Both the position numbers and the translations under genes were made by a program. Below the pieces are notes generated by a model. That model made no database searches, was not told the origin of the DNA, and saw nothing but the letters and a program-made list of their open reading frames with translations. From Devosia submarina (GTDB taxonomy: Bacteria; Pseudomonadota; Alphaproteobacteria; Rhizobiales; Devosiaceae), in NCBI RefSeq assembly GCF_003056345.1, contig NZ_PYWB01000014.1, positions 1 through 64,000 on the forward strand: a stretch of DNA of 64,000 bases, in the 5' to 3' direction. This document shows, piece by piece, positions 10,150-25,714 of the stretch; within the stretch, counting starts at the first letter, position 1, and the number at the start of each line of letters is the position of its first letter.

Positions 10150-11631
10150 ATGCCAACTATTGCTGAGGCAAAGACAGCTATCCTTCGGGCCTTTCGTGAG
10201 TTCCGGCGTTATACCGGCGATGGGCTGCCTGCCGAGCCTATAAGCGCACCGTTGCCCGTTGGCGACCCGCAATCAGGCGTGAACAATCCTAATAAGGCAA
10301 TCATTCGGAATGCTTTTGGCTTAGCATTTGATGCTCTGCAAGAGATCGCGGACGATATTGCAGCGGGTGCCGTTCCGGACAACGGCGTCACCACTGCGAA
10401 GCTGATAGATAGTGCAGTCACTCGCCCCAAGCTGCTGCCGGCTGTGGCGAAGTCTGTCTCGATCAACGTTTATGAGTTCGGCGCGCTCGGCAATGGCGTA
10501 AATGACACGGCGGCTGTGCAGGCAGCAATAGACTATTTGCCCTCTAGTGGCGGGGAACTGCTTTTCCCTGGGGGCGGGACTTACAAGCTGGGGCAGGTGA
10601 ACGTTGCCAAGCCCCTAAACATCAAAGGAGCAGCCCGAGAGGGCGCAAGCGTCATTAAGCCTTTGGCAGCGACGGGAGACTTATTCAATGTAACAGGTGT
10701 CGCCTTCACCGCAAGGGATCTACAGTTTAGCAGCGATGTGGTCAGGACTACTGGCGCCACTATAAAGGTGACTGGCCCCGGACGTGGGTCTATCCGTGAC
10801 TGCATGATGGAAAAGCATTTCCAAGGCATCGTTCTGGACGGCGCGTTTGCTTTCGTTCTGGACGGCGTGAATTTCTTCGACGCAACGCCTAGCGCAACAG
10901 CGGTAGGTTCTTGCAACATTTCGCTTGGTCCAACCCAATACACTCCCAGCATTTCGATCAACAACTGCAAAGCCAACCAAAACAATGAGAGCCTTCAGCC
11001 GTCTTTCGGCATTGTCATGGGGTACGTTGATATTATCAACATGACAGGCGTCGACATGATAAAGCAGGGCACTAACCTGTCGATCCGACCTTCCGCTGGT
11101 CAATTCGCGCACGGTGTCTATGGTGCGAATTGCTGCTTCGATAGCGGGCTGATTGCAATGGCAATCACCCCTAGCGGCGGGGACGTTCGCCAGTGCGGTT
11201 TCACTACCTCATGGTTCAGCGGCAGTCAGCAATCAGGCATCGTGGTTGACCCGTCCGGCTCTGCAATAGTAGCCGGTGTGGGTATTGCAAACAGCGACAT
11301 CATCAGCAACGGCAAAGGCGGCGCTGGTCATGGTATCGCCCTGATAGGCCCTAACGTGTCCAAGCTTTCCGTCACTGACGGTTGCCGCATTAGCGACAAC
11401 CCGAATAATGGCATCGACGTCTCTGGCGGCGCTACTGAGTTGATCATCGTGAACAACTTCGTTGGCCAAGTCGGTAACCTTGGCGGTAACGGCCAGACTG
11501 GCTTGGTCTTTGCCGGAGCCATGGACTACTCCGTAGTGACGGGAAACAATGTCGGGGGGAACGGCACCGCAGGGCTGTTTAACGTCGCAACCGGAACGCA
11601 CAACGTCATTGCTAACAATCCAGGAGCCTAG
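10150..11631 (+). CDS. tailspike protein with pectate-lyase-like beta-helix
   Basis: The 493-residue protein has an N-terminal virion-binding part (residues 1-100, including PNKAIIRNAFGLAFDALQ), then SINVYEFGALGNGVNDTAAV near residue 105. That pattern (the FGAxGDGxxDDTxAxQxA motif) opens the pectate-lyase-3/GH28-like beta-helix domain of tailspikes. Repeats of GI.., NN.. and GNG... fit a right-handed helix through the C-terminus. Such spikes cleave or bind surface polysaccharide. It ends convergently with an acyltransferase gene, whose stop shares bases with its own. Confidence 0.85.
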   Translation: MPTIAEAKTAILRAFREFRRYTGDGLPAEPISAPLPVGDPQSGVNNPNKAIIRNAFGLAFDALQEIADDIAAGAVPDNGVTTAKLIDSAVTRPKLLPAVAKSVSINVYEFGALGNGVNDTAAVQAAIDYLPSSGGELLFPGGGTYKLGQVNVAKPLNIKGAAREGASVIKPLAATGDLFNVTGVAFTARDLQFSSDVVRTTGATIKVTGPGRGSIRDCMMEKHFQGIVLDGAFAFVLDGVNFFDATPSATAVGSCNISLGPTQYTPSISINNCKANQNNESLQPSFGIVMGYVDIINMTGVDMIKQGTNLSIRPSAGQFAHGVYGANCCFDSGLIAMAITPSGGDVRQCGFTTSWFSGSQQSGIVVDPSGSAIVAGVGIANSDIISNGKGGAGHGIALIGPNVSKLSVTDGCRISDNPNNGIDVSGGATELIIVNNFVGQVGNLGGNGQTGLVFAGAMDYSVVTGNNVGGNGTAGLFNVATGTHNVIANNPGA

Positions 11632-12617
11632 GCCTTAGCGTGGCTTGAAGAGATGTGGAGTGTGGCGTTAACCGCTAGGCCAGTGGCGACTGACGCTCCA
11701 GCAACAATCGTCCAAAAGAGCATGTGCCCCAGAGCACTTTGGGGCTCTCCCGGAATAAGGGTATCAACAATGCGAAGGTATGGCCCGTGGAATACAAACA
11801 GGTAAACTGAGAAGTCTGCCAAAAATTTCCACTGGCCATTTATCAGCGACAGTCCCTTTGAGACTGCCCCTGCCTGATTGGACAATAACAGGATGAAGAA
11901 GCCGCTGACTACCAGAAATGCTGCAAGGTAATTCGATGCGTCCACGGGTGCGAACACCATGTAGTAAAACATGATGCTTATGCAGGCGCATTCAAGGGCA
12001 GTCGCAACAACTAGCGGCATACGGTGAAGCTGGGGATATGCCGAGTAGACGGCATAAACCACCGCGCCTAAACCGAAGCCGGCAATGGCCCTCATCATCC
12101 CCATGCTCAGGAACCCGAAGCGGACCTCCCATGTAAAGTTTATGCTCCCGCTATAGTTTAGGATCATCGCGTAACCAGCAAACGCAGCAACAGCTCCTCC
12201 GGCCAGAAACCATTGGCGGGGGATGTATATGCTCAGGAGTAATGCGGTGATCGAGACAAGGAGGTAGCAGGACAGGAACCACATAGGCCCGTTAACAATG
12301 AATTTATTCAATCCAGTGGATTGAAGCATCGTTACTGCTAGGAGCAGATCGGGAAGCGCGGGCCACGGGAAAACTACTAGCGTGAGGACGACCCCGGCAA
12401 AGTAGTAAGGGTATATTTTCCAAATTGTAGACGCGATTGCCGACGATGGCGGCTTTTTGGCAGGGCGATCATACCTGGAAGCCGCGAGAAACCCGGCCAA
12501 GACAAAGAATATCTCCACGGCCAAGTAGCCTTGTGGGGCCAAGCGCCAATTGCTGTGGAAAATCAGAATTTCAAAGGCGAGGATAAAGCGGAATGGCTGA
12601 AATGCACCCCAAGTCAG
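11628..12617 (-). CDS. acyltransferase-3 family membrane protein, probable CTG start
   Basis: About ten hydrophobic segments and the block GYLAVEIFFVLAGFLAASRY identify the acyltransferase-3 family (O-antigen or exopolysaccharide O-acyl transferases). Upstream in frame the first membrane helix FRFILAFEILIFHS retains the conserved Arg and His. A TTG at 12542 would remove that helix. No ATG or GTG exists in the open frame back to about 12757. A CTG at 12615-12617, where an ATG would be expected, gives LTWGAFQPFRF and 329 residues. Next to a tailspike it may mask the phage receptor. Start, and hence function, is unproven. Confidence 0.7.
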   Translation of the reverse strand: MTWGAFQPFRFILAFEILIFHSNWRLAPQGYLAVEIFFVLAGFLAASRYDRPAKKPPSSAIASTIWKIYPYYFAGVVLTLVVFPWPALPDLLLAVTMLQSTGLNKFIVNGPMWFLSCYLLVSITALLLSIYIPRQWFLAGGAVAAFAGYAMILNYSGSINFTWEVRFGFLSMGMMRAIAGFGLGAVVYAVYSAYPQLHRMPLVVATALECACISIMFYYMVFAPVDASNYLAAFLVVSGFFILLLSNQAGAVSKGLSLINGQWKFLADFSVYLFVFHGPYLRIVDTLIPGEPQSALGHMLFWTIVAGASVATGLAVNATLHISSSHAKA

Positions 12618-15665: not shown

Positions 15666-15680
15666 GTTCTTATTCTGTTC
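15666..15680 (+). promoter_or_regulatory. LexA (SOS) box, GTTC-N7-GTTC
   Basis: GTTCTTATTCTGTTC matches the alphaproteobacterial LexA site exactly (two GTTC spaced by seven bases). It lies 38 bases before the ATG of a small HTH gene, where a repressor would block transcription. Implies damage-induced expression of the rightward genes from here. Confidence 0.7.
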
Positions 15681-15718
15681 ACGCTGATAGGACTCGCCAC
15701 ATCCAGAAGGAGGTGACG

Positions 15719-15895
15719 ATGATTCCAATCGCAGCAAAGCCACAGAACAAGGCAGAGATGATCCGACTGGCAAACGCTAAGGAGCCTTTGCTTACTCCCG
15801 AGCAGCTGGCCGCAAAGATGGGCGTTCCCACCCAGCAGGTACGCCAGGCTCTCCGTAGCAAGGGCATCCCACTCAAACGCGGGCTTCGGTCCTGA
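15719..15895 (+). CDS. small HTH protein under a LexA box
   Basis: ATG follows AAGGAGG with good spacing (the GTG two codons earlier is also possible). The 58-residue product has a helix-turn-helix core, TPEQLAAKMGVPTQQVRQALRSKGI, and a basic C-terminus. The HTH resembles those of small phage transcription regulators and excisionases (the latter less well). The LexA site at 15666-15680 points to induction on DNA damage. A role in the lytic switch is inferred. Confidence 0.6.
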   Translation: MIPIAAKPQNKAEMIRLANAKEPLLTPEQLAAKMGVPTQQVRQALRSKGIPLKRGLRS

Positions 15896-15907: not shown

Positions 15908-16381
15908 GTGTCGACGCTTCGTCAAATGAAGGAAGAGGGGTGGCGCATCACCCTCTGCTGCAAGGCGGCGAACGCCCGCTGCACCCATAGCTGGCAGCCG
16001 ACATGGGATCAGCTGATCCAGTATTTCGGCCCGGACGCTGACTGGGTGAAGGACCGGACTGGCTTCGAGCGCCTAGTGTGCGAGGTATGTGGCGGCCGAG
16101 GCGCTACCGTCATCGTTCAGCCTTCAGCAGACACCCACGGCATGGGCGGCGCAGGCGGCGCTCATGATCACGGGCCTATGCCGGCACCCGAGGATATTGC
16201 CAAGCGCAAGGCCGAGTTCGAAGCGTGGTTCCGGTTCCACGGGTTCAAGACCAATGCCGAGATAGCAGCAGAGGCACGGGCAGAGCGGAAGCGGATAAAG
16301 GAAGCAGAGAAGGAAACCAGCAAGCACTTCATTGGCCCGCCAAACCCGTGGAAGTACCGGAAGCGGGGCAGGTGGCTTTAG
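15908..16381 (+). CDS. Cys-rich phage protein of unknown function
   Basis: The 157-residue product uses a GTG start 12 bases after the preceding HTH gene, so both likely form one SOS-controlled unit. It has CCKAANARC near residue 17 and CEVCGG near 58, which may bind zinc. Residues 105-150 form a charged helix ending WKYRKRGRWL. The N-terminal WRITLCCKAANARCTHSW recurs in small phage-borne proteins, but no activity is known to me. Confidence 0.55.
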   Translation: MSTLRQMKEEGWRITLCCKAANARCTHSWQPTWDQLIQYFGPDADWVKDRTGFERLVCEVCGGRGATVIVQPSADTHGMGGAGGAHDHGPMPAPEDIAKRKAEFEAWFRFHGFKTNAEIAAEARAERKRIKEAEKETSKHFIGPPNPWKYRKRGRWL

Positions 16382-16587
16382 GCCGCGTTCTCGTTCAGCC
16401 TGGCCGCTTCGTATTGCGACAGCAGCCGCAATCCAGATTGGGTGGCATGGGCCTTGCTGGGTGATCCCATTACCAGGCGATCGGCTAAGAGCAACTGCAG
16501 GGTCGGGCTGTCCTCGATAGCGTGTGGGTTATTGATTAGGCTGCGGAGGATTGCGACGGCTTCGGGCGTGAGCTCTTCGATAGTCAT
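16378..16587 (-). CDS. small helical protein, unknown
   Basis: The 69-residue frame has ATG start and reads as amphipathic helices (TPEAVAILRSLINNPHAI...LLADRLVMGS). Its end overlaps the end of the convergent Cys-rich gene by four bases. No family recognised. Composition fits a small phage early protein. Support is limited to length and convergent packing. Confidence 0.4.
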   Translation of the reverse strand: MTIEELTPEAVAILRSLINNPHAIEDSPTLQLLLADRLVMGSPSKAHATQSGLRLLSQYEAARLNENAA

Positions 16588-16657: not shown

Positions 16658-17812
16658 TCAGTCGAAAAGGATCTCGTAATAGGCGTTGGCTATGATTTCA
16701 CATAATGCCTGATGATGCGGACTGTGCCTGCTTCTTTGGTTTAGCTGTCCTATCATCCCGTCGACGTATTCTTTGAGGCTTTTCCAAGCGCGTTCGTCCA
16801 AGCCCGATTGACTAGCTCGGACGAACCCATCAAAGTCAGCGATCATTTTTCTTGCCAAGGATAGTCGTGGGCCAGGTGGAAGGCCTTCAATGACGTACGT
16901 AGCATTGGTTCCCGGAGCCAGTTCAGCTGGGGCCTGAATTTGAATGAACTGGCTCACTGGTGGCGCCGTGATCGAGGCGGTCGACCGGTCCCGGTGGTGA
17001 TATGGTTCCTGCTCATAAGCAGTGCTAGCGCCGCGGCACACATAATCATTCCTGACTGCCGAATTATCGGAAGTAGCTTCGCGTTCGGGCAAAGAAGGGG
17101 CATCGACCGCAACGATGATGGGTTCGCGTTGGTATTCTGGATTAAGCGATACAGGATTGAGCCATCGATCTGAATCATCTTCATCATCTGCAGGCGGCTC
17201 TAGGTCACTGTCGCCATCTATCTCATCTATGATCGCTAAGGCGCGCTCAACAAGGTCGGCAAGGATGTGGCGAGCAAGCCTTGGCGTTGTTGGCGTGCCC
17301 CCGATCGCGCTATGCACGTCGGCAAGCAACCGGCTTATGCCTTCATAGTCGACAACGTCGCCGTCATCATCCTGCAGGTCCAGGAAACCAGGTAGATCGA
17401 CTTCTTCGTGGGCGCAAATCCAAGCTTTCACCATAGTTCCATTAGCGAGGAACAGGTGTAAGCCACAGTGCTCACCCTCCACGATCGGTTTAAGCACGCG
17501 AGCCCCGGTCAGCACTCGCAATTGCGTTTCTGCTAGACGAGCGCCGATCGAGACTGGGTTTAGAAGATCATGATCGCGAAGCAGAGCGCCAGCTGCGCCG
17601 AGGTTGTCGGTCCCAAGCTTTTCTTCGAGGTCATTTATGATCTTGCGCAGCGAGGCCCTGTCTAGCGCCGTGAGCCACATGATTCTGAGCTCTGATGCGC
17701 CTAGGACGATGAGGTCAAGAACGTACTTCTCCTCCTCGGATAGTTCGACAAAGCAGACCTCCTCAAAGAGTACTGGCTTCTCCCAAGACCTGTAATTCGT
17801 GTTGTGAAGCAT
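16658..17812 (-). CDS. 384-residue protein with LuxR-like HTH at the N-terminus
   Basis: ATG is preceded by GGAGGG. Residues about 24-85 (LSEEEKYVLDLIVLGAS, ... IINDLEEKLGTDNLGAAGAL) parallel the LuxR/GerE HTH pattern L..RE..VL.L...G...., with a final KLG...L region, though residues in the recognition part have drifted. The rest has a small beta-like part, an acidic linker (DGDSDLEPPADDEDDSD) and a C-terminal helical part. No known family fits the whole. It follows a LuxR gene on the same strand by 122 bases. It may be a regulator with a new sensing or interaction part. Confidence 0.55.
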   Translation of the reverse strand: MLHNTNYRSWEKPVLFEEVCFVELSEEEKYVLDLIVLGASELRIMWLTALDRASLRKIINDLEEKLGTDNLGAAGALLRDHDLLNPVSIGARLAETQLRVLTGARVLKPIVEGEHCGLHLFLANGTMVKAWICAHEEVDLPGFLDLQDDDGDVVDYEGISRLLADVHSAIGGTPTTPRLARHILADLVERALAIIDEIDGDSDLEPPADDEDDSDRWLNPVSLNPEYQREPIIVAVDAPSLPEREATSDNSAVRNDYVCRGASTAYEQEPYHHRDRSTASITAPPVSQFIQIQAPAELAPGTNATYVIEGLPPGPRLSLARKMIADFDGFVRASQSGLDERAWKSLKEYVDGMIGQLNQRSRHSPHHQALCEIIANAYYEILFD

Positions 17813-17934: not shown

Positions 17935-18681
17935 TCAGACCTTGATTTGCTTCAACCGGATTGCCGCTACAACTGCCTGCGTGGTGCTTGCTGCATCCAT
18001 CTTTAGCCGAGCAGCTTCTACGTAGGATTTCACTGTGGTGCGGGACAGGTCCAAAATCTCAGCCGTTTGGGTCAGGTTGTGTCCACCGGCAAGCCATGTC
18101 AGCACTTCTCGCTCTCGATGCGACAAGTTAGGGTGGGCTCGCCTCTTTTGATCCATGATCTCGATGGCACGAATTTGGGCGTGCAAGCATGCCATGTGTA
18201 GAAGTTTTCGCTCCCACCCGGTGGGTTGAACCTTTCGCTCGGATGCTAGCGACACAAGGGCTTGCGTAGTTAGGCTATCGTGCAATGCAACGATAAGACC
18301 GTCCACCATTGCGAACTCGGCGGCCTCTGCCGCAATCTTCTTAGAGATCGGAGTGGCTCGAATGCGCTCCCTGGCTTCGATCCAAGTCCAAGGGCGAAGT
18401 TGGCCGTAAGCGAAGTCAGCCACTAGATCGTGCTTGGCATAATTCTCACTGGAGTATCGATCCAGCCAAGCTTGTGGCAAGTTATGCGCTATGGACGCAA
18501 CCGCGAGCCTTCCACCGACTTCTTGTTTTAGTCTGGTGATCGAAAAACGGGTAAATCCAAAACTCCGGATCGCGCTGGTAAAGGCCTCTATAAGCCCCCG
18601 CAAGCTTGTTTGTCTGTCAATATTCTCACAAAAATCTAGCACGCTGTAAGTTAGGCTGTCCAAGAATGCCCCCACTGGCAC
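17935..18681 (-). CDS. LuxR-family regulator with autoinducer-binding domain (solo)
   Basis: The 248-residue product has an autoinducer-binding fold with the invariant set at the right spacing: W, Y four residues on, D nine further (corresponding to W57, Y61, D70 of TraR numbering) and W fifteen after that (W85); P71 is replaced by Leu. The C-terminal GerE HTH (LSHREREVLTWLAGGHNLTQTAEIL...TVKSYVEAARLKM) has the conserved E/L/G. No luxI homologue lies in the window. It would bind a host acyl-homoserine lactone. The start is GTG with weak ribosome site; a shorter form is possible. Confidence 0.85.
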   Translation of the reverse strand: MPVGAFLDSLTYSVLDFCENIDRQTSLRGLIEAFTSAIRSFGFTRFSITRLKQEVGGRLAVASIAHNLPQAWLDRYSSENYAKHDLVADFAYGQLRPWTWIEARERIRATPISKKIAAEAAEFAMVDGLIVALHDSLTTQALVSLASERKVQPTGWERKLLHMACLHAQIRAIEIMDQKRRAHPNLSHREREVLTWLAGGHNLTQTAEILDLSRTTVKSYVEAARLKMDAASTTQAVVAAIRLKQIKV

Positions 18682-18708
18682 ATATGGAAAGTCTTTCTAA
18701 GGCTAAAT

Positions 18709-18731
18709 ACCTAGTAATTACTTACTGAGGT
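18709..18731. promoter_or_regulatory. lux-box-like imperfect dyad
   Basis: ACCTAGTAA (18709-18717) and TTACTGAGGT (18722-18731) are inverted repeats apart from one inserted base, with TTAC between. The core AGTAATTACT is itself a perfect palindrome. It lies 28 to 50 bases before the luxR start and 49 bases before a small rightward ORF. This is the size and place of a LuxR operator. Identity is inferred. Confidence 0.4.
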
Positions 18732-18779
18732 TCGCTCGCGTCGGTGAGCAGCAAGCAAGCACAGAAAAGGAGGATCGCT

Positions 18780-18866
18780 ATGTTTCCTAGCAAGCTTGCG
18801 TTAACAACCCGGGGTTTTTGTCAGGTCGTTGTCAGGCGCACTGTGGTACGCCATGCAGGCAATTAA
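18780..18866 (+). CDS. 28-residue ORF with strong ribosome site, divergent from luxR
   Basis: AAAAGGAGGATCGCT precedes an ATG that opens 28 codons: basic and hydrophobic, starting MFPSKLALTTRGFCQVV. The sequence carries a direct repeat GTCAGG...GTCAGG. The ribosome site is better than that of most neighbours, which is the main evidence it is real. No match is known. It stands next to a dyad that could be bound by the adjacent LuxR protein, and small peptides driven by phage LuxR-like regulators are known (Qtip of phage VP882), but no sequence link is claimed. Confidence 0.35.
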   Translation: MFPSKLALTTRGFCQVVVRRTVVRHAGN

Positions 18867-18944
18867 CATACATTAGGCTCTTTGGTGGTGATCGGTCGGT
18901 TCTTTTACGCAGCGCAGGTTCCCGATCAGTGCGTCGGAGTCGAA

Positions 18945-19196
18945 ATGCGCTGGAGCGACAGCAGACCCGAGGGGGTGTTGCATATCCCATCTGCTCTTAC
19001 CGGAGTGCTTGTCGCGGCAGGTTACGACCAGTTCGAAACAGGTCACACCTATCACTTGCCTATGGCTGTTGGGATTGCAGTAACACTGAGCATGCTCACC
19101 TATACGCCCATGTATTTGACCGGCGATCTATCTGTCTGGACAGAGGAATGGGCTGAGCTGAAGCTCAGTGATGAGGCAGTCTCAGACGCAAACTAG
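18945..19196 (+). CDS. short hypothetical protein with one hydrophobic stretch
   Basis: The ATG at 18945 has GGAG five bases upstream and gives 83 residues; upstream GTG/TTG starts (18882-18888) lack ribosome sites. The middle, TYHLPMAVGIAVTLSMLTYTPMYL, is hydrophobic. No family recognised. It stands alone between the luxR region and the convergent SRAP operon. Could be partly spurious. Confidence 0.35.
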   Translation: MRWSDSRPEGVLHIPSALTGVLVAAGYDQFETGHTYHLPMAVGIAVTLSMLTYTPMYLTGDLSVWTEEWAELKLSDEAVSDAN

Positions 19197-19225
19197 ACGG
19201 GCCTGACCTTGATTGAGCCTAGCTT

Positions 19226-19912
19226 TCAAAGCGAGTTGATCAGCGGCTTCTTGGTATCTGTGCCTTCATAGCGGCTGTTGTTGACTGCGCGGGTGACGCG
19301 GTGAAACTGGAGCTGGCTATCAATCTGGCTGTCCATCAGCAGCGCTTTTGCACTAACGCCCTGGTCCTCGCATGATAACCACTGTTCATATGCTTCCGGC
19401 CCGATGATCAGCGGCATGCGGGTATGGATGTGGGCGATGCGCTCGACGGCCGGCGCCGTGATGATGGTGCAGCTGGTGACGCCAAGGTTATCGTTGTGCG
19501 CCCAAATGCCGGTAAAGCTGAATGGCTGGCCATCTGGTAGTTGCAAGAGCCATGGATCTTTGCCGCCGTCCTCGGCCCTGGTCCATTCGAAATAGCCATC
19601 GGCTGGGATCAGACAGCGTCGTGACTTGAAGCCCTTTCGGAATGCGCCGGAGGTGTCCACCGTCTCGAGGCGAGCATTGAACATCGCGGCCTTGGGCAAT
19701 TCCCTGGCAAAGAACGGCACAAGCCACCACCGGCCCCGATCCAGCTCCATGTTTCCGGCCTTGTCCAGGTGGACAAAGTCAACGTCTTGCGTCGGCGCGA
19801 TGTTGTACCGCGGTTGCATGTTGTGCGGCGGCACGGGATGGAGCTCGTCACTCAGCTTGTAGAGGGCGTGAAGCTCAGGCCAGGTCAGTTCGTTGGTGAA
19901 GCGGCCGCACAT
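19226..19912 (-). CDS. SRAP-domain DNA-protein crosslink protein (YedK/HMCES family)
   Basis: The 228-residue product starts MCGRF, exposing the conserved Cys2 that forms the thiazolidine link to abasic sites. Further family signs are PRYNIAPTQ (residues about 29-37), FNARLETV, DGYFEW with the catalytic Glu, and HTRMPLII with the catalytic His. It protects abasic sites in single-stranded DNA. Its start overlaps the end of the preceding gene of a three-gene operon that begins after a LexA box, in line with the name SOS-response-associated peptidase. Length is normal (about 220-240). Confidence 0.93.
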   Translation of the reverse strand: MCGRFTNELTWPELHALYKLSDELHPVPPHNMQPRYNIAPTQDVDFVHLDKAGNMELDRGRWWLVPFFARELPKAAMFNARLETVDTSGAFRKGFKSRRCLIPADGYFEWTRAEDGGKDPWLLQLPDGQPFSFTGIWAHNDNLGVTSCTIITAPAVERIAHIHTRMPLIIGPEAYEQWLSCEDQGVSAKALLMDSQIDSQLQFHRVTRAVNNSRYEGTDTKKPLINSL

Positions 19913-20340
19913 TCTGACTTGCCTCGCAAAACGGCTGCTTCTGCTTCAAGGCGAGCTACATTCGCCTGCAGTTCAGCAATCTGGGCGTGAAGGGCCTCTG
20001 TTTCCATTTTATGGTACTGCAGAGCCAACTCAACAGCGTTCCGGGCGCCAAGCTTCTTCATTAGGCGATATCTGTGCACCTCGATCGTACGCTCAGAAAG
20101 TCCAATTTTTTGGCTGATCTCAGCACTGGTAAGCCCTTGCGCAGCGAGCTCCGCGACTTCCTGTTCACGGCCGGTTAAGGGAGCCCCCAACTTGAGCAGT
20201 GCGCCAGCGCGGCAGTGTTTTACAACGGCTAAGCTCAGACTGAGCCGATGAGCTATAGCTCTACTGCTCAGGCCCTGAGCTGACAGCGTTAGGATTTGCT
20301 CATCCCGAGCCTTAAGAGCGGTGCCAATATGATCTTCCAT
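19885..20340 (-). CDS. tandem LuxR-type HTH protein with C-terminal coiled coil
   Basis: Start chosen at the ATG that overlaps the preceding stop (TAATG), giving 151 residues. Residues about 12-50 (RDEQILTLSAQGLSSRAIAHRL...LLKLGAP) and 54-102 (GREQEVAELAAQGLTSAEIS..., then TIEVHRYRLMKKLGARN) are two copies of the GerE/LuxR HTH. The second is canonical and the first is degenerate. A Glu/Ala-rich helix follows (about 110-140). There is no sensor or receiver domain. It is the middle gene of the LexA-controlled SRAP operon and may control it. No close family known. Confidence 0.7.
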   Translation of the reverse strand: MEDHIGTALKARDEQILTLSAQGLSSRAIAHRLSLSLAVVKHCRAGALLKLGAPLTGREQEVAELAAQGLTSAEISQKIGLSERTIEVHRYRLMKKLGARNAVELALQYHKMETEALHAQIAELQANVARLEAEAAVLRGKSECAAASPTN

Positions 20341-20666
20341 TAGTCCAGCCCCTCCAGTTCGGCCAAGCGTCCCCATTCTGGCCGCCACAATGCCCTGTCC
20401 TGGATGGCAATGACAACGCGATTGTAGGCCCACAAGGCACAAAGCTCGTCGGCTCGCCTGAGAGCTTCAGGGACGGAGTAGGGGCCTTCAAGAGACGCCT
20501 TCACCTTGTCGCCCTGGCGAATCCAGTCCGGCCAGTAGATCGATGCTAGGACCTCGCCGTACTCAATGCCAGCAGCCGTGAATGCCTTCTCGTCCGATCC
20601 AATGCCGACGATGATTGCATCTAGCGCAACTTCGTCATCGTCTGTGGTCCACTGGTAGATGGTCAC
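20340..20666 (-). CDS. hypothetical protein, first gene of the SRAP operon
   Basis: The 108-residue product begins MTIYQWTTDDDEVALDAIIVG and includes PDWIRQGDKVKASLEG, then ADELCALWAYNRVVIAIQD. It overlaps the next start and lies 42 bases downstream of a LexA site, so it leads an SOS-induced operon. Similar small acidic proteins with RVVI-IQD-type ends are seen as uncharacterised proteins in rhizobial genomes, as far as I recall. No function can be given. Confidence 0.6.
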   Translation of the reverse strand: MTIYQWTTDDDEVALDAIIVGIGSDEKAFTAAGIEYGEVLASIYWPDWIRQGDKVKASLEGPYSVPEALRRADELCALWAYNRVVIAIQDRALWRPEWGRLAELEGLD

Positions 20667-20708
20667 AGCTCTGGCGCCATCTGTTCGGGTGTTTCAGGCA
20701 TCGATTCG

Positions 20709-20723
20709 GAACCTCTCCAGAAC
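20709..20723 (-). promoter_or_regulatory. LexA (SOS) box upstream of the SRAP operon
   Basis: On the minus strand the site reads GTTCTGGAGAGGTTC, an exact GTTC-N7-GTTC LexA box. It lies 42 bases before the first start codon of the operon 20666 to 19226. A gene of the SOS-response-associated class (SRAP) being in this operon supports function. Confidence 0.75.
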
Positions 20724-20803
20724 AGATTTTGCACACACCACGGATAGTGTGTGCAATCCTTGTCTTGACAGGTAGGCCCAAACCCCAGAAAAGGCGGGCG
20801 TGA

Positions 20804-20877
20804 GGCCACGTGGCGGAGTGGTGACGCAGCGGATTGCAAATCCGTGTACTCCGGTTCAATTCCGGACGTGGCCTCCA
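20804..20877 (+). tRNA. tRNA-Cys (anticodon GCA)
   Basis: A 74-base cloverleaf is seen: acceptor GGCCACG pairs with CGTGGCC, anticodon arm GCGGATTGCAAATCCGT holds GCA, the T-arm has GGTTCAATTCC, and CCA is encoded. The short variable loop and anticodon give Cys. It lies on the border between the phage-derived arm (its 5' side) and ordinary chromosome (its 3' side). Confidence 0.96.
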
Positions 20878-24352: not shown

Positions 24353-25714
24353 ATGAGTTTTCGCGCAACAATGGTCGCCAGCGTCTTGGCGCTTAGCATG
24401 GCCTCGTTGGCTGTCTCGGGCGCCCAGGCGCAGTCGATCACCCAGGCGCTGACCAGGGCCTATGATTATGCACCCGATCTGCAGTCGGCGCTGCTGGCGG
24501 CTAAGTCGGCTGCTGAAAACGTTGCACTCGCCAAGGCTGGCAAGCTCCCCACGATTGGCGCTTCCATCGGCGGCACCTATTCGGGCTCGCTCACCGATGC
24601 AGGTTTCACCGACGGCACGTCGCTGACAACGGGCCTCACCTATAACCAGACCATCTTCGACAATTTCCGTACCGACGCCGAGATCGAAGCAGCTCGCGCC
24701 GGCGCTGAAGCCGCTGAATTCCAGATCCGGAACACCGAGCAGAACGTGCTCCTGTCCGTCGTGCAGGCCTATATGTCCGTTCTTTCGGACCGCCAATTGG
24801 TGGCCCTGCGGCGCGAAAACGTCACCTTCTTCCAGGCCCAGCTGCAATCCTCCGAAGATCGCCTCGAAGTGGGCGAGGGTACGCGTATCGACGTTGCCCA
24901 GGCTCGCGCGCGTCTTGCCCAGGGCCAGGCTACGCTGGACGCAGCCATCAACAGCCTTGAAATCAGCGAGGCCACCTTCCAGCGCTATGTCGGCGTCGCG
25001 CCGCAAAGCCTTGATGGCTCGCACAATTATTCTCGCCTCGTTCCCCGCAATCTGCAGGCTGCCATTTCTGAAGCCGAAGTCGGCCATCCCGCTATTTTGG
25101 GCGCCAAGGCCGCGATCCGCGCCGCTCAGGCCAATTCCGATGGCGCCCAGGCAGAGTTCGGCCCCTCAGCGAGCGTAACCGGGCAGGTCGGTTCGAGCTG
25201 GAGCCAGCCCAATAGCCCCGCCGATGGTTTCTCGGGCTCGGTCCGTTTCCAGATCACGGTTCCCATCTATGCCGGTGGCGCGATTGGCGCCTCGGTGCGC
25301 CGCGCCAATATCGAGCAGATCCGTTCCGAAGTGGACGCCATGTCTGCCTATGACCAGATCCGCGAATCGGTGATTTCGGCCTGGGCCGGCATCCAGAGCG
25401 CCGACGCGCAGATCACCGCCGCCAATGCTGCCGTTGCCGCCGGCCGTGAGGTAGTGGAAGGGGTGATCCAGGAACGCGATTTGGGCACCCGCACCACGCT
25501 GGACGTCCTGAACGCGCAGGCCGAACTGACCTCCGCCCGCGAAGGTCTAATCACCGCCTCCGCCAACAAGGTCGTCGCGACCTTCTCTCTGCTTGCCGCC
25601 ATCGGCAATTTGACCGCGACCGATCTTGGCCTGCCGGTCGAGGTAAAATCGGCGGTGCGCTACAACCAGGCCGTCGAAGACGTTTGGCAGGAATTGCGCA
25701 CCATCGCCGAGTAA
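24353..25714 (+). CDS. tolC: TolC-family outer membrane efflux/secretion channel
   Basis: The 453-residue protein begins with a signal peptide (MSFRATMVASVLALSMASLA...AQA, cleaved before Q). Two OEP repeats follow with long helices (TRAYDYAPDLQSALLAAKSA..., later AVAAGREVVEGVIQERDLGTRTTLDVLNAQ) and characteristic GTRT-x-LDVLNA motif. It forms the outer-membrane tunnel for RND efflux and type I secretion (possibly including the RTX/DUF4214 protein at 21.2 kb). Start chosen at the Met before the signal peptide. A terminator follows the stop. Confidence 0.93.
   Translation: MSFRATMVASVLALSMASLAVSGAQAQSITQALTRAYDYAPDLQSALLAAKSAAENVALAKAGKLPTIGASIGGTYSGSLTDAGFTDGTSLTTGLTYNQTIFDNFRTDAEIEAARAGAEAAEFQIRNTEQNVLLSVVQAYMSVLSDRQLVALRRENVTFFQAQLQSSEDRLEVGEGTRIDVAQARARLAQGQATLDAAINSLEISEATFQRYVGVAPQSLDGSHNYSRLVPRNLQAAISEAEVGHPAILGAKAAIRAAQANSDGAQAEFGPSASVTGQVGSSWSQPNSPADGFSGSVRFQITVPIYAGGAIGASVRRANIEQIRSEVDAMSAYDQIRESVISAWAGIQSADAQITAANAAVAAGREVVEGVIQERDLGTRTTLDVLNAQAELTSAREGLITASANKVVATFSLLAAIGNLTATDLGLPVEVKSAVRYNQAVEDVWQELRTIAE

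Follow-up and report, generated by a model that had tools for sequence, protein, structure and literature searches.

Three neighbouring units, including a putative AHL-sensing receiver cassette, predicted on the right arm of a Devosia prophage

In the soil bacterium Devosia submarina, the right arm of a dormant virus probably comprises three separate units lying side by side, an explanation that we hold as a whole with somewhat better than even confidence. The first would be an acyl-homoserine lactone (AHL)-sensing cassette made up of a LuxR and a divergent small ORF, corresponding to the receiver in a luxI-luxR-small ORF arrangement that is complete in related Devosia prophages; the second would be a p20340-(tandem HTH)-SRAP operon; and the third an SOS unit consisting of a LexA box, a small HTH gene and a Cys-rich gene. 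Comparison with related loci supports the prophage location, the unit structure, the conservation of the cassette, the lack of a detectable luxI and the conserved position of the SOS box. The features of the arm in the window, i.e. the whole stretch of 64,000 nucleotides that was analysed, are as follows.

15666–15680, minus strand: conserved LexA (SOS) box, GAACAGAATAAGAAC
15713–15895, plus strand: small HTH protein, first gene past the conserved SOS box (HTH_23, E 4.9e-4, under the curated cut-off)
15908–16381, plus strand: p15908, Cys-rich and zinc-ribbon-like by inspection, no Pfam match
16378–16587, minus strand: p16378, 69 amino acids
16658–17812, minus strand: p16658, 384 amino acids, weak GerE-like match
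17935–18681, minus strand: LuxR-type AHL receptor without luxI (a solo), Autoind_bind and GerE domains
18682–18881: luxR/small-ORF intergenic region, 200 bp, presumed divergent promoters, no recognisable lux-type box
18882–19196, plus strand: small ORF, 104 amino acids, divergent from luxR and convergent with the SRAP gene
19226–19912, minus strand: SRAP (abasic-site crosslink protein), 228 amino acids (PF02586, E 2.7e-56)
19885–20343, minus strand: tandem GerE (LuxR-type HTH) protein, 152 amino acids, two GerE stretches, ATG at 20343
20340–20666, minus strand: p20340, 108 amino acids, first gene of the operon, no Pfam, PHROG or NCBIfam match
20709–20723, plus strand: exact GAACN7GAAC, previously claimed as a LexA box, 42 nt 5' of the operon start codon, probably a chance match
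20800–20843, plus strand: attR core, 44 bp, 5' half of tRNA-Cys, right end of the prophage
20804–20877, plus strand: tRNA-Cys (gca), the attachment site (ARAGORN)

All of the genes studied lie on the right arm of a Devosia prophage for which an integrase, an att repeat and structural and lysis genes are present. The attR core is 100% identical to positions 24370–24413 (minus strand) of contig C43 of the host genome (G000), with identity ending at both borders, and an integrase ORF (C43:23179–24300) adjoins the C43 copy; the repeat within tRNA-Cys and this integrase bear out the right-arm placement given in a preliminary description of this DNA. The assembly splits the two arms between contigs C43 and C6, which share no overlapping ends, and the prophage repressor, which has a Peptidase_S24 domain, is encoded on the left arm, opposite that of luxR.

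The luxR product matched Autoind_bind (E 1.8e-22) and GerE (E 1.9e-13), both above the curated cut-offs, and its residues W72, Y76, D85 and W100 align with pocket residues of CviR/TraR-type proteins; four of the five usual residues are therefore kept, with L86 in place of the usual proline. In TraR numbering (W57/Y61/D70/P71/W85) these are the W57, Y61, D70 and W85 equivalents and the P71 to L exchange that had been described before. From its domains and pocket residues, the protein is predicted to be a LuxR of the AHL-binding type; its reading frame is open across 248 codons and the HTH is kept. A LuxI profile gave no match in the host genome, while the same model found LuxI in four of six Devosia genomes, and so this LuxR would have to listen to the signal of others; as the host assembly is in 45 contigs, a luxI may be hidden in a gap. 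In a phylogenetic tree the window LuxR falls among the cassette LuxRs with support of 99/94; its branch is long (1.79) and basal in the clade, a position compatible alike with loss of luxI and with an ancestral solo state.

The luxR gene and the small ORF are divergent in all six loci found to hold them side by side (the window, L072–L075 and L160). In the five loci other than the window luxR is followed by luxI and then a radC-like gene; LuxI family matches were obtained at all four Devosia places and in L160, and a RadC domain was found in L072 and L074. Three of these five related loci have a phage context: L160, an IMG/VR viral contig, matches an integrase and, weakly, an endolysin; in L073 a major-head-protein match is accompanied by an integrase; and L074 has an endolysin. 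Three of the relatives, L073–L075, also carry a lux-type dyad, TTTTACCN4GGTAAAA, at 13, 13 and 14 of 14 positions, a level reached by none of 500 shuffles each, although these shuffle counts flatter the pattern because it was derived from the same sequences. The best fits were 10 of 14 in L072, 9 in L160 and 8 in the window, which 54, 182 and 446 of 500 shuffles respectively reached. With the dyad of its relatives missing, DNA binding by the window LuxR may have changed or been lost. A dyad had previously been assigned to this intergenic region; it holds two of the 88 perfect 10-bp palindromes of the window, and the dyad was rejected.

The small ORF is present as previously described, and matches to it occur at 35 places in 29 of 136 Devosiaceae genomes, two of these 35 being fragments of a single place (in G002). 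The host itself has a paralogue of the small ORF on contig C34, with a PAS-GerE neighbour. Five members of the family share 14 invariant columns. An AlphaFold2 model (pLDDT 82) had no match in the PDB at E ≤ 0.001, and the D. riboflavina small ORF as query found none among phage records. A GerE domain was detected near the small ORF at 14 of 30 loci compared with 0 of 27 controls; the remaining 16 have no GerE gene within approximately 1.5 kb. Four of the ten domains behind the GerE model came from these same neighbourhoods, and the 14 positives include five founders of the small-ORF family. PAS-GerE domains were confirmed in six partners of the small ORF, and five of the family members inspected lie tail to tail with PAS-GerE genes. 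The family is a concrete candidate for a modulator of LuxR-type regulators. The small ORF and p20340 may be distantly related: between them there is an 18-column hhalign match around W..EWG.L, with a weak HMM hit (E 0.0025).

Among phage records, the LuxR query had two distant matches and the LuxI query five. Scans of viral contigs with the small-ORF alignment, and with the single tandem-HTH and single LuxR queries, found no relative, an absence that is weak because these scans use short peptide patterns; scans with the LuxR alignment and the LuxI alignment both returned one identical contig, in which the small ORF is present though its own scan had missed it.

The neighbouring operon, described earlier as a gene of no recognised family, a tandem LuxR-HTH gene and an SRAP gene, was confirmed as a run of overlapping genes. 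The start of the tandem GerE gene, which sits between p20340 and SRAP, overlaps the p20340 stop (TAATG), and a related GerE protein is encoded near SRAP in L077, L078 and L210 too. The SRAP protein begins MCGRF and has an SRAP domain with Cys2; its relatives in IMG/VR comprise 10 contigs at 68–82% identity and 2 more at 54%. p20340 has matches in 39 of 136 Devosiaceae genomes, and its AlphaFold2 model (pLDDT 81) gave no match in the PDB at E ≤ 0.001. Judged by sequence comparison, the p20340-(tandem HTH)-SRAP operon is common in Devosia prophages. SRAP in temperate phages has already been published (PMC3765255); insofar as the accessible part of that account allows comparison, the prophage SRAP gene is alike, and in G033 it adjoins a umuC-type polymerase gene, whereas the window differs in its p20340 partner and accessory tandem GerE gene.

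The exact LexA-type motif at 20709–20723 was previously taken to lead this operon. The motif is there, but it resembles background and lacks conservation. Bare GAACN7GAAC occurs at chance level, with 2 copies in the window against 1.36 expected and 117 genome-wide, where the reversed pattern has 147. With a matrix made from all 19 exact boxes of the other 20 SRAP arms, excluding recA and the window, the motif scored -6.2 and ranked 62 among the 100 own-genome matches listed; it ranked 60 with our first matrix, which held 15 of these 19 other-arm boxes, picked by eye at loci with two of them, together with two recA boxes. A low score alone is no proof of non-function, as in a leave-one-out analysis 3 of the 19 training boxes scored about as low (-6.6, -6.4 and -6.1). 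However, among 19 SRAP loci with enough upstream sequence, an exact box within 200 bp 5' of p20340 was found in the window only, being absent from the 18 other p20340-SRAP operons. The motif is probably a chance match, and it was rejected as an SOS control of SRAP.

The box at 15666–15680 ranked second, after recA, among the 100 own-genome matches listed, and an exact box lies on this side of SRAP at 16 of 21 loci. A small HTH-like protein is also encoded behind the box in L207, L261, L266 and L268 (by inspection), and in L269 a 55%-identical relative of p15908 is the immediate neighbour behind the SOS box. The case illustrates that an exact but short SOS motif calls for a conservation test: the motif that had been chosen looks like background and one 5 kb off is conserved. 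The conserved box, approximately 5 kb from the 20709 motif, was absent from the preliminary description.

An SRAP domain was found at 3 of 6 LuxR/small-ORF loci (the window, G033 and, as a different subtype, G056) and at 3 of 13 other small-ORF loci; as SRAP recurs near such cassettes, the vicinity of the AHL cassette and the SRAP operon may be no accident. Within the stretches examined, a LuxR of this kind occurs at 2 of 21 SRAP loci (the window and G033) and a GerE gene of any kind at 6 of 21. The order luxR-small ORF-SRAP-p20340 recurs in one other genome, G033, but the tandem HTH gene is absent there. The circuit proposed previously, in which the SRAP operon answers to LuxR and LexA together and the phage reads both damage and crowding, could draw on the exact motif upstream of the operon start codon and on the cassette adjoining SRAP of the same type here and in G033, with the other subtype near the cassette in G056. 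Such direct wiring is nevertheless highly improbable: gene orientation makes LuxR/small ORF and p20340-tandem HTH-SRAP separate transcription units, the motif is background-like and has no counterpart close to where the other p20340-SRAP operons begin, and a LuxR of this kind is missing from the stretches examined at 19 of the 21 SRAP loci.

In our preferred explanation of three separate units, ligand, DNA target, small-protein action and output are what we infer: LuxR would most likely read AHLs from neighbours or from cells with the complete cassette, AHL-bound LuxR would alter transcription over the 200-bp divergent region, and the small protein is probably a modulator, acting on its cognate GerE protein or on the repressor circuit and thereby biasing the choice between lysogeny and lysis. 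Damage is also expected to act via the S24-type repressor of the left arm. That the LuxR solo is instead the relic of a luxI-luxR cassette, idling in the prophage as a decaying passenger, would fit its long branch, the P71L exchange, the missing dyad and the failure to find luxI; we consider it rather unlikely, since LuxR retains an open frame, its HTH and the remaining four of the pocket residues checked, and the small ORF is open and conserved as well. An induction switch of the type reported for Aeromonas phages Apop and ARM81ld, whose TF-smORF modules include LuxR (PMC10432266; PMC6456758), carries more weight but is still on the unlikely side. AHL-LuxR would here activate the small ORF, the product of which would inactivate the repressor, leading to SOS-independent lysis. 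The accessible parts of these accounts describe the same geometry and receptor type, a phage-borne LuxR-type receptor and a divergent small gene, and the Devosia prophage does have an S24 repressor. However, the smORFs are said in PMC10432266 to be without homologues, whereas this small protein belongs to the conserved family of 35 places, which pairs with PAS-GerE genes too, tail to tail in five of the cases inspected; no XRE partner was seen beside luxR in the window, and the repressor gene lies on the opposite arm. Further, Apop/ARM81ld is given there as a linear plasmid-like phage and the window holds an integrated prophage with an att site.

Prophage switches of the form xre-luxR-luxI have been described from the Roseobacter clade, and the modules are reported, in the part of this 2026 preprint available, as confined to that clade (PMC13345283). 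A prophage LuxI/LuxR pair in Alphaproteobacteria with a counter-oriented neighbour is shared with the relatives of the window; the differences from the account in PMC13345283 are the host (Devosia, Hyphomicrobiales), the order luxR-luxI-radC, a counter-oriented gene with no recognised HTH and, in the window copy, the lack of luxI. No xre was found beside luxR in the window or, by inspection, among the listed ORFs of the luxI-bearing relatives, and luxI and xre are thus not joined with luxR in one operon as in the Roseobacter switch. If our explanation is correct, prophage AHL signalling would extend beyond the Roseobacter clade and the XRE-type switch, and a single bacterial genus would harbour one cassette in both a sender and a listener form. 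More tentatively, quorum sensing in Devosia prophages may follow a further, XRE-free architecture that pairs one invariable small protein with interchangeable GerE regulators, be they PAS-GerE proteins or AHL-LuxRs that come with luxI or lack it. The small protein would be a general modulator of GerE activators, and luxI-less prophages would eavesdrop on luxI carriers; we regard this as possible but doubtful. Phage VP882 has the VqmA-Qtip system. VqmA likewise lets a phage perceive a signal of its host and thereby start the lytic program, but it is outside the LuxR-type family and binds DPO (described in PMC6456758) rather than an AHL; the VP882 receptor is also treated in PMC13345283. Our literature searches found no paper joining SRAP, prophage, LuxR and LexA, none joining 'LuxR solo', prophage, Alphaproteobacteria and quorum sensing, and, for Devosia with quorum sensing, luxR and luxI, none on Devosia prophages as judged by title.

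Of the other genes of the arm, p16658 has matches in 2 other genomes of 151 searched, and its GerE match (E 0.014) was obtained with all filters off. An 83%-identical copy of p16378 lies on contig C45 of the host, in a second, paralogous arm (L211) where p16378, SRAP and p20340 are contiguous, p16378 directly adjoining SRAP, without LuxR or the small ORF between them. On plasmids, LuxI relatives below 60% identity are common (708 records).

The LuxR and SRAP genes lie near one end of a prophage, among the following features:

15666-15680, conserved SOS box
15908-16381, plus strand, Cys-rich gene
16378-16587, minus strand, p16378
16658-17812, minus strand, p16658, unknown, 384 aa, matching GerE weakly (E 0.014)
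17935-18681, minus strand, LuxR
18882-19196, plus strand, small ORF (104 aa)
19226-19912, minus strand, SRAP
19885-20343, minus strand, tandem GerE protein
20340-20666, minus strand, p20340, first gene of the SRAP operon
20709-20723, LexA box of the preliminary description

Matches to tape-measure, tail, fibre, endolysin and holin proteins run across the window up to approximately 20.8 kb. The 44 bases at 20800-20843, the 5' half of a tRNA-Cys gene, exactly repeat positions 24370-24413 of a second host contig, C43, with identity stopping at both ends and an integrase gene adjoining the C43 copy; judged by sequence, this half-gene is the predicted end of the prophage. The other arm (C43:1-24413) carries the integrase, terminase and capsid genes and a repressor that combines HTH and Peptidase_S24 domains; no overlap was found between the ends of C43 and C6, the contig of the window. 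Given the repeat, the integrase and the gene content of the arms, LuxR and SRAP are therefore placed inside a prophage, in agreement with the preliminary description, whose gene content was also borne out. An IS-type transposase fragment (rve_3; L097:11-187) opens C43, where the assembly breaks between the two arms. An O-acetyltransferase match (11628-12542) adjoins the tail-spike gene and by inspection resembles an ORF on the other arm (L097:248-1183); both are candidates for host surface modification.

LuxR contains both family domains, and the proposed acyl-homoserine-lactone pocket stands as regards its usual residues, with leucine replacing P71 as previously noted. A search of 151 genomes, of which 125 gave some match, placed five Devosia proteins, 37-41% identical, nearest to the window LuxR. 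In a 31-protein tree the window LuxR formed a long basal branch of a group (support 99/94) comprising these five, an IMG/VR protein and one protein of genome G081. A LuxI model that matched in four of six Devosia genomes, and in none of the 14 named control genomes of the same search, had no match in the host genome; a LuxR solo is credible.

The interest lies in the cassette of luxR and divergent small ORF together with its luxI-bearing relatives in prophages. The order small ORF, divergent luxR, luxI and radC-like gene is found in D. riboflavina (G054), a D. ginsengisoli MAG (G014), a Devosia sp. MAG (G056), G033 and viral contig IMGVR_UViG_3300024046_000025, with LuxI family matches at all four Devosia places and on the viral contig, and a RadC domain confirmed in G033 and G054. 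Phage matches stand beside three of these five cassettes: major head protein and integrase in G014, endolysin in G033, and integrase with a weak endolysin match on the viral contig; inspection of the ORFs around the G054 and G056 cassettes revealed no clear phage genes. The LuxI clade is rare, reaching E <= 1e-40 in 5 of 397 genomes, an even draw over the order in which G014, G054 and G056 are not listed, and scoring far above the rest in G033 only. According to an excerpt of a 2026 preprint, prophage luxI modules, of xre-luxR-luxI form, are found in the Roseobacter clade only (PMC13345283). The viral contig also has, close to a tRNA-Ser, a pair of exact LexA-type boxes that overlap each other (L160:6888-6913).

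Many loci of Devosia, and many viral contigs, have p20340 adjoining SRAP; in three loci (L077, L078 and L210) SRAP has a related tandem-GerE gene nearby. The host has another copy of the arm (L211:5749-6912, contig C45), and there p16378, SRAP and p20340 are contiguous; p16658 and the LuxR/small-ORF cassette, which separate p16378 from SRAP in the window, therefore look like an insertion. The C45-copy SRAP is 86% identical, and that arm has its own box of the conserved SOS type. The LuxR cassette adjoins SRAP-p20340 in G033, as does a PAS/GerE-small ORF pair in G060, and an SRAP protein of another subtype (L075:2420-3187; PF02586, E 5.3e-19) lies near the luxI-luxR cassette of G056. L219 has a protein similar to this other subtype. 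An SRAP domain was present in two of five other LuxR/small-ORF loci (window excluded), and in 3/13 other small-ORF loci versus 0/5 further stretches. These arrangements support shared residence of SRAP and the cassettes on prophage arms; joint control does not follow from them. On the divergent side of p20340-SRAP in G033, the stretch L074:11903-13897 contains a umuC-type polymerase gene together with a LexA-type box and two ORFs, one small and HTH-like, the other umuD-like by inspection.

The Caulobacter SOS box is given as GTTCN7GTTC, or GAACN7GAAC on the opposite strand, in an excerpt of PMC9578287. A copy of GAACN7GAAC precedes recA in 19/19 Devosia recA loci (5 exact, 14 with one mismatch); in the host genome the bare motif occurs at chance level. 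Merging three pairs that were 100% identical over 6.9-7.7 kb reduced 24 SRAP loci, including the window, to 21. An exact box lay within 4.5 kb on the SRAP 3'-end side in 16 of these, with 20 boxes in total versus 3 for the reversed control, the window's member being 15666-15680. By inspection of 14 of the 15 non-window loci, the next gene after the box was Cys-rich in seven, small HTH-like in four and other or unclear in three (L201, L226 and L267). The window box is followed by a small HTH gene and the Cys-rich gene, and faces the side of the arm that carries SRAP. Using a matrix built from 19 arm boxes of other SRAP loci (window's left out), the recA box ranked 1, 15666 ranked 2 and 20709 ranked 62 among 100 listed own-genome matches. 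An exact box within 200 bp upstream of p20340 was found in the window only, of 19 loci with enough sequence; two more had one at 240 and 278 bp. The combined LuxR/SOS/SRAP circuit, which had been built on the 20709 box, is not supported by this rank and distribution.

The small ORF, whose family has 14 invariant columns common to five members, gave 35 match places in 29/136 Devosiaceae genomes, two being pieces of one and four lying in this host. A GerE domain was present within about 1.5 kb in 14/30 loci versus 0/27 control loci (19 at recA, 8 at GAACN7GAAC matches), where five of the 14 are family founders and four neighbourhood proteins went into the GerE model. PAS_3 and GerE domains were confirmed in six partner proteins; such a partner is tail to tail with, and overlaps, the small ORF in five loci (L214, L219, L220, L223 and L224) and is divergent in L217, and in L210 PAS and GerE are split over two ORFs. 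Action of the small protein as a modulator of the GerE protein would suit the two orientations better than a role as promoter target alone, and an anti-repressor of the kind described in an excerpt of PMC10432266 is possible. Its AlphaFold2 model (pLDDT 82, from five sequences) had no significant match in the PDB. Both the small ORF and p20340 have W..EWG.L-like motifs at their ends, a faint resemblance by which they may be distantly related. Just before the small ORF is a 28-codon ORF (18780-18866) with a good Shine-Dalgarno sequence, possibly a leader peptide.
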